A stretch of DNA of 52,845 bases from Acidobacteriota bacterium (GTDB lineage Bacteria; Acidobacteriota; Terriglobia; Terriglobales; Acidobacteriaceae): contig JAGWNX010000016.1 in NCBI GenBank assembly GCA_028872955.1, forward strand, positions 1-52,845. The letters run 5' to 3'. Under the pieces are notes generated by a model. That model had not been told where the DNA came from. It searched no databases and saw nothing but the letters and a program-made list of their open reading frames with translations. Both the position numbers and the translations under genes were made by a program. Position 1 is the stretch's first letter. Each line of letters begins with the position of its first letter. Below are positions 27,566 through 38,613 of this stretch, one piece after another.

Positions 27566-27995
27566 CGTGAGGGCTTCTCCTGGCGGGAATCGCAAAGCTG
27601 TGCGCGCGGCCGCAACCCGCTGGCGTACAGCGCACGCACAGAACGCCGGGCAGCGACGTGCCAGTCTATACCGAAGCACGTGTTGCATGACCAGTTGCCT
27701 TGTGTGACGAGTGGTTGAATCTGCTCTGCAGCCGGGCAGCTTATGCTTCTCATCCTCTGACCGCCACTACCGCTCGGGTGCCCCATCCTTCGCAGTATCA
27801 CCGCGAAGGGTGGGAGAGAAGAAAGCCTGAAGTGTATGGTTGGAGTGGGTTGCGCAGAAAGTCCCTACTTCCCATTCTTCCCAAAATGCGCGAAGGATGG
27901 GGCACCTGTGCGGTAGTGGCTGGTTCTAAATACGGGCCACCCGCCGATGCACTTGTATCCAGGCTAGCTACTGGTGAGAACGACTTGGGCCTTAC
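27566..27995. other. 430-bp intergenic region with a repeat element
   Basis: The first ~200 bases should contain the promoter of the minus-strand hydrolase, none of which stands out. The rest is a palindromic element (27763-27920). A 99-residue plus-strand frame crosses the element and is not considered a gene. Confidence 0.6.
27763..27920. repeat. 158-bp element with 31-bp terminal inverted repeats
   Basis: The left end (27763-27793) and right end (27890-27920) are inverted copies matching at 29 of 31 positions. The shared motifs are GCCACTACCGC and GGTGCCCCATCCTTCGC. A third copy, GCGAAGGGTGGG, lies inside, facing the left arm as a second hairpin. No coding sequence is carried. It looks like a miniature, non-autonomous mobile or REP-type element. 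Confidence 0.75.
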
Positions 27996-36440: not shown

Positions 36441-36530
36441 GGTGGTTCTCCATCCTGCCGGGCAGGGCACAAGTCTATAAGGATCAAGGGGAAAGGGGGG
36501 AGACAGGGCCGGGGCGCAGCTAGGCAAAGT

Positions 36531-36550
36531 CGTGACGGCGCGGCGTCACG
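36531..36550. repeat. 7-bp inverted repeat upstream of prfA
   Basis: Perfect arms CGTGACG and CGTCACG flank GCGCGG, about 90 bases ahead of the prfA start. The surrounding 36441-36717 stretch otherwise holds no gene or clear promoter by eye. Confidence 0.4.
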
Positions 36551-36717
36551 CTGGGGGCGGTCACCGGGTTGGCAGCAGCACGCAGCATATCTCTACTTAA
36601 AGATGTTACCGCGAATGCCCGGGATGCAGCAGGGGCGCAGGTGCGAAACCCGGTTCGGAGGCAGGGGCGGATGAGGGGAGGGCGTTTATGGGTTCTAACT
36701 ACGTTGGCTAGCCCAAT

Positions 36718-37041
36718 CTATTGATTCTCTTCGACGTAGTCCTTGTGATTCTCCTCGACGTAGTCCTTGCAGCCTTCAGCAAATGATGGGGAGTTTGAGT
36801 TGTCCCCAGCGATGTCGCAGTCATCCTCATCATCGATGTCCTTATCCTTTGCCCAATCATACCCAGCTTGGTGACCGCTTCCCCAATCACCGATTGCGGT
36901 AGATGAATCATCGGCGTCAGGCCCATCTGCGTTCGGATCGGACGAGGTAGAGTACAAACGTGGATGTGGCTTTGGGGTATCGTCCCGAAAGGCAAAGTAC
37001 AGGATCGCTATAACGACCAGCAGAAAAGCTAGCTTTTTCAT
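36718..37041 (-). CDS. Small membrane-anchored acidic protein
   Basis: The 107-residue product has one N-terminal hydrophobic segment (residues ~3-17, KLAFLLVVIAILYFAF) and an acidic extracytoplasmic part rich in Asp. It includes the pattern GYDWAKDKDIDDEDDCD and SFAEGCKDYV with two Cys. The C-terminus is an exact-length duplication of eight residues (KDYVEENH then KDYVEENQ), caused by a 24-bp tandem repeat. The start chosen is ATG 37041; GGAG lies unusually close upstream. An in-frame ATG at 37089 is possible but would weaken the signal. Gene is low in GC and lies in the accessory patch. No function can be assigned. Confidence 0.6.
   Translation of the reverse strand: MKKLAFLLVVIAILYFAFRDDTPKPHPRLYSTSSDPNADGPDADDSSTAIGDWGSGHQAGYDWAKDKDIDDEDDCDIAGDNSNSPSFAEGCKDYVEENHKDYVEENQ
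36723..36770. repeat. 24-bp tandem duplication in coding sequence
   Basis: Two 24-base copies (36723-36746 and 36747-36770) differ at two positions and encode the C-terminal octapeptide repeat of the small acidic protein. Confidence 0.75.
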
Positions 37042-37108
37042 CGCTCCGGGCCTCGCCGTCATATTCGCAGGATGCGATCCTGCCTGCAATGAAAAAGCAT
37101 CTTACCAA

Positions 37109-37200
37109 GTGCCCCAGATGTCGATTCTGAGATGTGGGTTTGCAGGATGCTCGTCTCCAGCCTCAAACTAGAGCTTCCGTGAACGGCGTTTATCGTTCCT
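37109..37200. repeat. 92-bp direct repeat, copy 1
   Basis: The stretch from GTGCCCCA to TATCGTT recurs 550 bases downstream at 37659-37750, with about 8 differences (roughly 91% identity). This copy has a degenerate palindrome at its left end. Confidence 0.8.
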
Positions 37201-37247
37201 AATCCAGGGTAAGTGGACGATCAACAGCCTTCTACACTGGTTCAACT

Positions 37248-37643
37248 ATGACTATCGGTATGGACTTTCATGACGCACGACTGCTTGAGCTCGTTTGCAA
37301 TTCGGATGGCGGGGGGCATGCTCTACTCCGTGCGTGTATTTTCAAATCTAACGGCATTGTCTTCGAAGATGCACAAGAGTCCGGCTGGCAGAACTGCCGC
37401 CTGGTCTTCCAAGGCATGCGAGTTCAGGGTACACCGGCAGAACTCGGCGCATATGCTAGCGAGGGAGATATGCGGGTGGATGGAAAAAGTCATGGCGGTT
37501 TGATCCTTCTTCCTGCGGATTATCAAGGCAGCATACAAATCAATCTCGTGCTGTCGCCACTCTTCGAAACCTTGACCATTCACGCTCAAAGAATCACTTC
37601 GTTGCTTGAGGGTCCATGGGAGCTCGAAGCAACTTGGGAGTGA
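37248..37643 (+). CDS. Hypothetical protein between direct repeats
   Basis: The 131-residue protein starts at ATG 37248 and lacks signal or membrane segments. It opens with MDFHDARLLEL and a Gly-rich turn (NSDGGG), has mixed charge and alternating hydrophobics suggesting a beta-rich fold, and ends with GPWELEATWE. It sits alone between the two 92-bp repeats, which suggests it moved or was duplicated as a unit. GC content is lower than in the neighbouring conserved genes. I do not recognise the family; similarity to immunity proteins is only an impression. Confidence 0.55.
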   Translation: MTIGMDFHDARLLELVCNSDGGGHALLRACIFKSNGIVFEDAQESGWQNCRLVFQGMRVQGTPAELGAYASEGDMRVDGKSHGGLILLPADYQGSIQINLVLSPLFETLTIHAQRITSLLEGPWELEATWE

Positions 37644-37658
37644 GGCCGGCGCAGCCGG

Positions 37659-37750
37659 GTGCCCCACATCTCGATCTTGAGATGTGGGTTTGCAGGATGC
37701 TCGTCTCCAGCCTCAAACTAGAGCTTCTGTGAGGGGCGTTTATCGTTACT
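37659..37750. repeat. 92-bp direct repeat, copy 2, with palindrome
   Basis: Second copy of the repeat. Its left end has a perfect 10-bp inverted repeat CCCACATCTC / GAGATGTGGG around six bases, directly after the core GGGTGCCCCA that also occurs in the element at 27763-27920. Confidence 0.8.
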
Positions 37751-37801
37751 GATCAGCTCAAATCTGCACAATGATGACCTCATGGGACTCGGAGGTCTGC
37801 T

Positions 37802-38224
37802 TCAGTAGAGCGTATAGAGTGGCGGTATAAACAGCGCACGAATACGTTGTCTGTAGATTCCAGGTGGGTCGTGGGGCCAAGGCCGCTTATCATCGTTCGC
37901 CTTCTCGGAATCAGATAGTGAAAACTCAGAGATGATAAGGACCTGGCAGCCATCAGCGTTCCCATTTGTGCTAAATGTCCAGTGCCCTTCACTGGTTTCG
38001 ACAGATTTCGCTAGCAACGGATGGCCGCTCACAATCTCCACCTTGGATACGTTTCCAGAGGAACCGAACTCAAGACGGGAAATTACTGCTCCTTGCAGGC
38101 GGGCGGCTTTCGCAATTGGCGGGTAGGCTGGTGCAACAACGTTCACTGGCTTCATCGCGCACCAGTGGGAGCCAAAGCAAACGCCGGGTGCGAAGAATAG
38201 AAGTATCAGTAGTCGTTTGATCAT
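37802..38224 (-). CDS. Stand-alone TonB C-terminal domain protein
   Basis: The 140-residue product has a short signal peptide (LLILLFFAPGVCFGS) and then PVNVVAPAYPPIAKAARLQGAVISRLEFGSSGNVSKVEIVSGHPLLAKSV. That matches the C-terminal domain of TonB, which binds receptors; the motif is YPPxAKxxxxxGxV. It lacks the usual N-terminal membrane anchor and Pro-rich arm, so it cannot transmit energy in the standard way. It probably acts in the periplasm. It belongs to the low-GC patch; the ribosome site is weak. The many acidobacterial TonB receptors make a link plausible. Confidence 0.75.
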   Translation of the reverse strand: MIKRLLILLFFAPGVCFGSHWCAMKPVNVVAPAYPPIAKAARLQGAVISRLEFGSSGNVSKVEIVSGHPLLAKSVETSEGHWTFSTNGNADGCQVLIISEFSLSDSEKANDDKRPWPHDPPGIYRQRIRALFIPPLYTLY

Positions 38225-38382
38225 TCAGGCGCTGTCCTACGGTCTCAGGCAGTTGTCACCAGCAGCGTCCAGTTTCCCGCAAAGACAGCGTAAACAGCAA
38301 CTTCGATCAGTACCGTGAAGCCGCCTTCCCCTCACCAACCCAGATCAGCCGGGCGGGCTGGCTGCGGGTTGCTTTGCCGTGC

Positions 38383-38613
38383 TTAGCCGGTGCGTTTGGT
38401 GCGGATGATGTCTTCGCAGTTGAAGCAGAGGCGCTGGCCGGGGGCGTGGCCGCCGTTCAGGTAGCGGACGCGGCGGTGGCGCGGGATGGCCTGCAGGCGG
38501 GTGCACTTCTCCGTGGTGTGGTACACGTCGCTGCCCTCGCACCAGGTGGGCGGAATCTCGGGCGTCAGCTCGGGCTGGTCCGGAAAGGCGAGGCTGGGCT
38601 GCGGCGAGGGCAC
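38383..38613 (-). CDS. Small zinc-ribbon-like protein
   Basis: A 76-residue frame starting at GTG 38613, whose first base is the last base of the upstream stop (TAGTG), with AAGGA 6 bases before. The product has a Pro-rich N-terminus and four Cys: one after PTW, one in EKC near the middle and a CFNC pair at the end. The pattern suggests a zinc site. Coupled translation with the preceding zinc-ribbon gene implies a joint role. Upstream in-frame ATG at 38748 lies inside that gene and is unlikely. Function unknown. Confidence 0.6.
   Translation of the reverse strand: MPSPQPSLAFPDQPELTPEIPPTWCEGSDVYHTTEKCTRLQAIPRHRRVRYLNGGHAPGQRLCFNCEDIIRTKRTG

Follow-up and report, generated by a model that had tools for sequence, protein, structure and literature searches.

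Direct repeats around a 131-residue gene in an acidobacterial genome are probably REP elements linked to a group of Y1 transposase genes

The two direct repeats that bracket a 131-residue gene in an Acidobacteriaceae contig probably belong, as REP elements, to an acidobacterial TnpA_REP-like system whose foot is non-canonical; the pair would have arisen locally and the gene would have been acquired separately. Judging from sequence comparison, we give this reading a probability of roughly three in four. REPs are small bacterial palindromes thought to have been spread by a captured transposase. The units are assigned to them because their hairpin is dispersed, its stem shows compensatory changes, it shares a foot with a wider hairpin family and it is linked to a group of Y1 transposase genes. 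The window, here meaning the whole analysed stretch of 52,845 nucleotides (contig JAGWNX010000016.1 of assembly GCA_028872955.1), contains the following features.

27776 to 27907, no strand: inverted pair of foot hairpins (REPIN-like) with the stem ATCCTTCGC, as found around the RAYT gene of the source genome on contig C113
36580 to 38383, no strand: approximate variable block, from prfA to the following gene that some relatives share
36718 to 37041, minus strand: 107-aa gene of the variable block, no family assigned (ORF list, profile searches)
37109 to 37204, plus strand: copy 1 of the 96-nt unit, REP-type hairpin plus tail (repeat comparison, own-genome search)
37113 to 37138, plus strand: copy 1 hairpin, mismatched and apparently decayed stem (repeat comparison, folding)
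37171 to 37204, plus strand: copy 1 tail motif, also seen apart from the hairpin in certain other genomes
37248 to 37643, plus strand: accessory 131-aa gene between the copies, no family assigned (ORF list, homologue and profile searches)
37659 to 37754, plus strand: copy 2 of the 96-nt unit, REP-type hairpin plus tail (repeat comparison, own-genome search)
37663 to 37688, plus strand: copy 2 hairpin, perfect 10-bp stem, with the foot GGGTGC immediately 5' from 37657
37721 to 37754, plus strand: copy 2 tail motif
37802 to 38224, minus strand: 140-aa gene with a TonB_C domain, in the variable block (ORF list, Pfam)

An earlier note on this DNA had described 92-bp direct repeats, about 91% identical and 550 bases apart, around the 131-residue gene, with a perfect palindrome in the second copy. 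Both descriptions hold: the repeats (37109-37204 and 37659-37754) measure 96 nt, with 91% identity and a start-to-start step of 550, and the copy 2 stem, CCCACATCTC / GAGATGTGGG, has 10 bp without mismatch (37663-37688). The hairpin occupies the first ~31 nt of the unit and has the form GGTGCCCCACATCTC-loop-GAGATGTGGG. DNA folding gave z-scores of -1.54 (copy 1) and -2.68 (copy 2) on the plus strand, and of +0.38 and -1.68, respectively, on the minus strand. Identity between the copies differs along the unit, being 100% in the middle 32 nt, 88% in the hairpin and 84% in the tail. Since this identical 32-nt middle is at most 81% identical to that of the other three copies in the genome, the window pair appears to stem from a recent common copy or to have been homogenised. 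The two units lie in direct orientation and thus do not form a REPIN, which consists of two inverted REPs with a spacer.

The source genome (G000; 3.48 Mb in 207 contigs) contains five copies of the 96-nt unit on four contigs, two in the window and three solitary. Uniqueness of the repeat to this site, which the earlier note had named as grounds for giving up its reading, can therefore be set aside. Its suggestion that the repeat would recur with other cargo genes is borne out only in part, as the three further copies exist but all are solitary between unrelated genes. Over the aligned part, the solitary copies share 84% (C182), 77% (C193) and 73% (C170) identity with copy 2. Copy 2 starts 16 nt past the stop of the 131-aa gene, the C182 copy 8 nt past a stop codon (ORF reading) and the C193 copy 22 nt past the end of a purK-like gene (named by eye), while the C170 copy adjoins an Mrr endonuclease gene. 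All five copies are intergenic by ORF-list reading when overlapping small or out-of-frame ORFs are ignored, so that the hairpin is, like a REP, a short palindrome dispersed in intergenic DNA. Two solitary units lie beside possibly defence-related genes (L130 299-2304 on C182 and L132 4616-5712 on C170). These neighbours are the Mrr endonuclease and a gene for a 384-aa protein that follows a Gp37/Gp68-like ORF (the latter names by eye); a Pfam search retrieved no match for the 384-aa protein.

The hairpin extends well beyond this genome. A repeat search found matches in 27 of 61 close genomes, namely 27 of the 37 within the genus (own genome included) and none of the 24 outside it, and the matches mostly cover the first 30-45 nt. 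With a degenerate hairpin pattern allowing at most two mismatches, we detected the hairpin in 37 of 120 family genomes, which represent 24 of 79 genera; the highest count in a single genome was 135 (G150). The reversed pattern, used as a control, had no match in the same 120 genomes. Thirty loci from the pattern search, together with the two window copies, gave 32 aligned hairpins (29 distinct). At two stem pairs, the alignment contained 23 cells changed on both sides against 8.3 +/- 2.2 in shuffles, and none of 500 shuffles reached as many. Paired cells made up 95.5% of the total against 89.3% in shuffles. The covariation signal comes from two of the ten stem pairs, three pairs being invariant, and neither the count of doubly changed pairs nor that of further pair types exceeded the shuffles in this alignment. 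The search pattern did not force the two compensated pairs, because it left both of them free. Compensatory changes thus show the stem to be conserved as a structure, as in REPs.

Y1_Tnp (PF01797) was searched in 37 relatives, 26 of which had a match, and in 16 hairpin-bearing genomes, 13 of which did, one genome (G001) being in both sets; 59 Y1 loci were fetched, some matches not being taken as loci. The window hairpin type occurs at 10 of the 59 loci (at most four mismatches; one of these, L211, is a weak match), and at three (L092, L194 and L195) it is present in inverted orientation on both sides of the gene. Many Y1 loci carry hairpins with the constant foot GGTGCCCCA...TGGG, with stems that vary by transposase subgroup. 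In a tree of 60 Y1 proteins (one of the 61 labelled was too short), we delimited a group of 28 loci as the 'GLKRYQ'-type rows; it was chosen after the tree was seen and is not a demonstrated clade, as midpoint rooting places a well-supported group of 22 rows within it. Allowing one foot mismatch, a foot hairpin was found within 500 bp at 25 of the 28 group loci, three having none within that distance, against 3 of the 34 remaining Y1 loci (a set that includes two outside the tree). An inverted pair of foot hairpins around the gene was found at 14 of the 28 and at none of the 34. Control stretches around prfA, in two partly overlapping sets of 78,536 and 100,983 bp, contained 7 and 9 foot hairpins, respectively. 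Foot hairpins accompany every locus of a 12-row subgroup (support 96/96), which includes six of the nine window-type rows of the tree; the other three (L091, L204 and L211) fall in the other Y1 group, and L205 is outside the tree.

The foot-hairpin family as a whole, and this stem in other species, therefore flank TnpA_REP-type genes, at some loci as inverted pairs, as REPs do. The GT[AG]G guide that accompanies REP hairpins is absent, the constant foot being GGTGC(C). REP-like hairpins lacking GT[AG]G are reported for subclass 2.6 and class 3 in the available part of PMC6006769, so GT[AG]G would define the canonical type and not all REPs. The strings GTGC and GGTG did not occur in the individual papers searched for them.

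Four Y1 genes were found in the source genome, on contigs C113, C171, C193 and C74. The C113 gene has foot hairpins with the stem ATCCTTCGC and those on C171 and C193 have foot hairpins with another stem, while the C74 gene belongs to the other Y1 group and has no foot hairpin. The C171 protein, a member of the 12-row subgroup, matches Pfam Y1_Tnp, and its best match among solved structures is E. coli TnpA_REP (PDB 4er8, 1.2e-11). The RAYT loci on C171 (L134, 893-1554) and C193 (L135, 2401-3062) are 93% identical over 662 bp, both hairpin ends included, which points to copying of entire REPtrons; class 2 genes are described as having low copy number and low identity between copies in the text seen of PMC6006769. 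The hairpin pair at 27776/27907 consists of two inverted REPs with a spacer, as a REPIN does. The window stem type, CACATCTC, was found beside none of the four resident Y1 genes in the 207 contigs; a locus of another genome (L092 of G001) has it. As no resident transposase with their stem was found, the window units, and with them all five diverged copies, are probably left over, as orphans, from an earlier spread.

The ~60-nt tail is common to all five copies, and the REP reading does not account for it. Its last ~34 nt recur without the hairpin in other genomes of the genus. With at most one mismatch, they matched at 17 places (four in the source genome) in 12 of 62 genus genomes, only some of these hits looking genuine by eye; the control gave four matches in three genomes. 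Because the tail occurs alone elsewhere, the 96-nt unit may be two fused elements. Within the window, positions 36681-36698 resemble the tail motif, and a tail-like stretch with five mismatches lies on the minus strand at 38272-38324, just upstream of the TonB_C gene. The motif of the latter stretch is followed, by eye, by a diverged right half of the palindrome described next.

This second dispersed family, which we call the 'A' palindrome, is 70-80 nt long, with the left half TTCCCg.AAAACGGGGTTTTCGGcAACTTCG and the right half CGAAgTTGCCGAAAACCCGACTTT.CGGGAA. It was detected in 30 of 62 genus genomes with at most three mismatches, against one control match, and 46 of 98 copies had a left half, against one in the control. 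In some genomes it is clustered every 0.4-3 kb (L246-L256 in G071, G013 and G033). We considered clustered A palindromes (G071, G013 and G065) as cassette arrays and dismissed the idea, as the genes between them vary in size and direction. Two sister genomes compared over 29 kb (99.5% identity) differ by two internal indels of 140 and 2819 bp, neither of which lies at a palindrome.

The 131-aa gene is accessory. Homologues with 65-68% identity were present in 2 of the 61 other genus genomes; a third genus genome has two pieces of a weak homologue with a stop between or inside them, and four more genomes in a family sample of 250 have distant homologues (27-33%). Pfam, NCBIfam and PADLOC gave only a sub-threshold match to Glycolipid_bind (E 0.12) for the 131-aa protein and none for the 107-aa protein, while the 140-aa protein matched TonB_C and, below threshold, TonB-type NCBIfam profiles. 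An AlphaFold model of the 131-aa protein built from three sequences had a mean pLDDT of 34 and was set aside. Rfam gave no match for the locus, even with E values as high as 1 allowed, or for four array stretches at the gathering threshold. No foot hairpin was found beside the homologues in the seven stretches fetched, of which the Granulicella one (G019) ends with its contig ~340 bases upstream. In Edaphobacter lichenicola (G002), the homologue is located between two same-direction copies of the A palindrome, 573 bp apart (L128, positions 1648 and 2221).

The surroundings of the gene are also variable. GC content is 0.520 at 37001-38000 and 0.608 and 0.625 in the adjoining 1-kb bins, which confirms the low-GC patch seen by the earlier note, and the description as an acquired low-GC patch fits. 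None of the 107-aa, 131-aa and TonB_C genes had a match in 20 fetched prfA-upstream stretches (E 1e-3; several short, at contig ends). Eight of the 20 contain both prfA and an aldo/keto-reductase-like gene (named by eye), and in six of the seven stretches read for ORFs these two genes enclose a 600-725-aa ORF resembling an ATP-dependent DNA ligase (by eye). The gap from prfA to the next shared gene is 578 bp in G014, with small ORFs inside, against 1943 bp here. As these stretches differ among relatives, the block at about 36580-38383 varies between species, and the repeats lie inside it and not at its ends; it contains two genes besides the 131-aa gene. The comparison with genomes lacking an insertion, which the earlier note had recommended, thus upholds a variable locus but not repeats as its borders. 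Elsewhere in the region, a 26-nt stretch upstream of prfA (36513-36538) is 92-100% identical in several relatives and may be a leader or regulatory element, and a 24-nt tandem duplication lies at 36722-36769, in the 107-aa ORF near its 3' end.

The earlier note had favoured a gene cassette or a repeat-mediated insertion, a reading that takes the direct repeats as sites for an integron-like or other recombinase that moves the 131-aa gene by site-specific recombination. This we consider unlikely. Two repeats in the same direction with a single small accessory gene between them, in a patch of low GC, would suit it, and its best point is the E. lichenicola homologue, which also lies between same-direction repeats although of a different palindrome family. 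However, the remaining three unit copies are solitary, so that the same site around different cargo was not found in the source genome, and the flanks of the fetched homologues lack such a hairpin (upstream within the ~340 bases available in G019). No integron integrase scored above the curated cut-off in any of 62 genus genomes, and, for the A palindrome, neither sister-genome indel lies at a palindrome and the genes in between vary in size and direction. Weaker tyrosine-recombinase matches are present in all 62, some in proteins of ~305 aa with two good half-matches. A bolder version, in which unrelated palindrome families are interchangeable borders of single-gene cassettes and the 131-aa gene is carried by an unrecognised recombinase, strikes us as most improbable; if true, it would make the REP-plus-tail unit here and the A palindrome of E. 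lichenicola equivalent borders for the same gene. It is scarcely more credible that a TnpA_REP enzyme moved REP, gene and REP together as one composite unit. The same hairpin unit at both ends, the close relationship of the pair and the evidence for copying of a whole REPtron, both hairpin ends included, are in its favour, but REPtron ends are inverted and the window units direct, the source genome has no second copy of the 131-aa gene, no resident enzyme with the window stem was found and homologues elsewhere lack the hairpins.

Repeats kept for their effect on neighbouring genes, as terminators, promoters or mRNA-stabilising hairpins, are also quite unlikely. Three of the five copies start 8-22 nt past a stop codon in the same direction, a terminator-like match lies in the copy 2 tail, and REPs can have such roles according to the part of PMC3733652 seen. 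Against this, a scan of the region found no promoter-like site and three terminator-like sites where 2.0 were expected, not above chance; Rfam gave no match; and copy 1 is upstream of genes on both sides. The REP reading has its own difficulties. At 96 nt the unit is longer than the hairpin and, in contrast to a REPIN, is not paired with an inverted copy. A REP family would be expected to have more than five copies, and the foot departs from the canonical GT[AG]G. Moreover, random scatter would not be expected to place two of only five copies on either side of one gene, 550 bp apart.

Under the REP reading, each 96-nt unit would be an extended REP whose left ~31 nt form a hairpin with the foot GGTGCCCCA...TGGG, of the kind that flanks Y1/HUH transposase genes of TnpA_REP (RAYT) type in this bacterial family. 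By analogy with the mechanism proposed for REPs, the enzyme would recognise the single-stranded hairpin with its foot, cut it and rejoin it, thereby seeding copies into intergenic DNA. Past mobility and recognition of the foot we infer, as we do the origin of the window pair, which would most simply lie in local duplication, in re-insertion beside an existing copy or in homogenisation; the 131-aa gene would have been acquired separately from the flanking units.

The REP/TnpA_REP reading replaces that of a gene cassette, and the finding itself would be ordinary genome decoration in a soil acidobacterium. The family-wide set, with a constant GGTGCC foot and stems that change with the transposase subgroup, is suited to studying hairpin recognition by TnpA_REP-like enzymes in the absence of the usual GTAG guide.

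Among known systems, integron gene cassettes (attC) resemble the locus in having repeats around a single small gene. They differ in that no integrase exceeded the cut-off and the other copies are solitary, and attC core sites were judged absent by eye against a consensus. Class 3 and subclass 2.6 TnpA_Y1 genes, in the portion of PMC6006769 available, likewise have hairpins that lack a GT[AG]G foot. Acidobacteria are given there as a source of class 3, whose foot is CnGA; subclass 2.6 comes mostly from Bacteroidetes. Unlike class 3, which has Y- - - -Q, the proteins here have the Y motif Y-x-H-R-N-P, of the class 2 type (Y- - -NP). No paper on an Edaphobacter intergenic repeat was found in the open-licence PMC literature. 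The nearest published description that we found is the TIRYT group and its TIRtrons, which the accessible sections of PMC3733652 present as a sharply defined acidobacterial Y1 group with flanking inverted repeats, some self-complementary and repeated, in Terriglobus saanensis, Koribacter versatilis, Acidobacterium capsulatum and Granulicella mallensis. These are possibly the same elements; however, the shared motif given there, GGGGWSAS, does not fit the GGGGCACC end here (by eye). The likeness to E. coli REPs with their RAYT or TnpA_REP gene (REPtrons) covers short palindromes present many times between genes, a Y1 transposase flanked by inverted copies and matching E. coli TnpA_REP in sequence, and stems that differ between transposase subgroups. 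For other bacteria, the part of PMC8266576 seen supports co-evolution of TnpA_REP with REP types. What sets the acidobacterial elements apart from E. coli REPs is the foot, GGTGCC against GT[AG]G, and, in the window units, a ~60-nt extension without an inverted partner.
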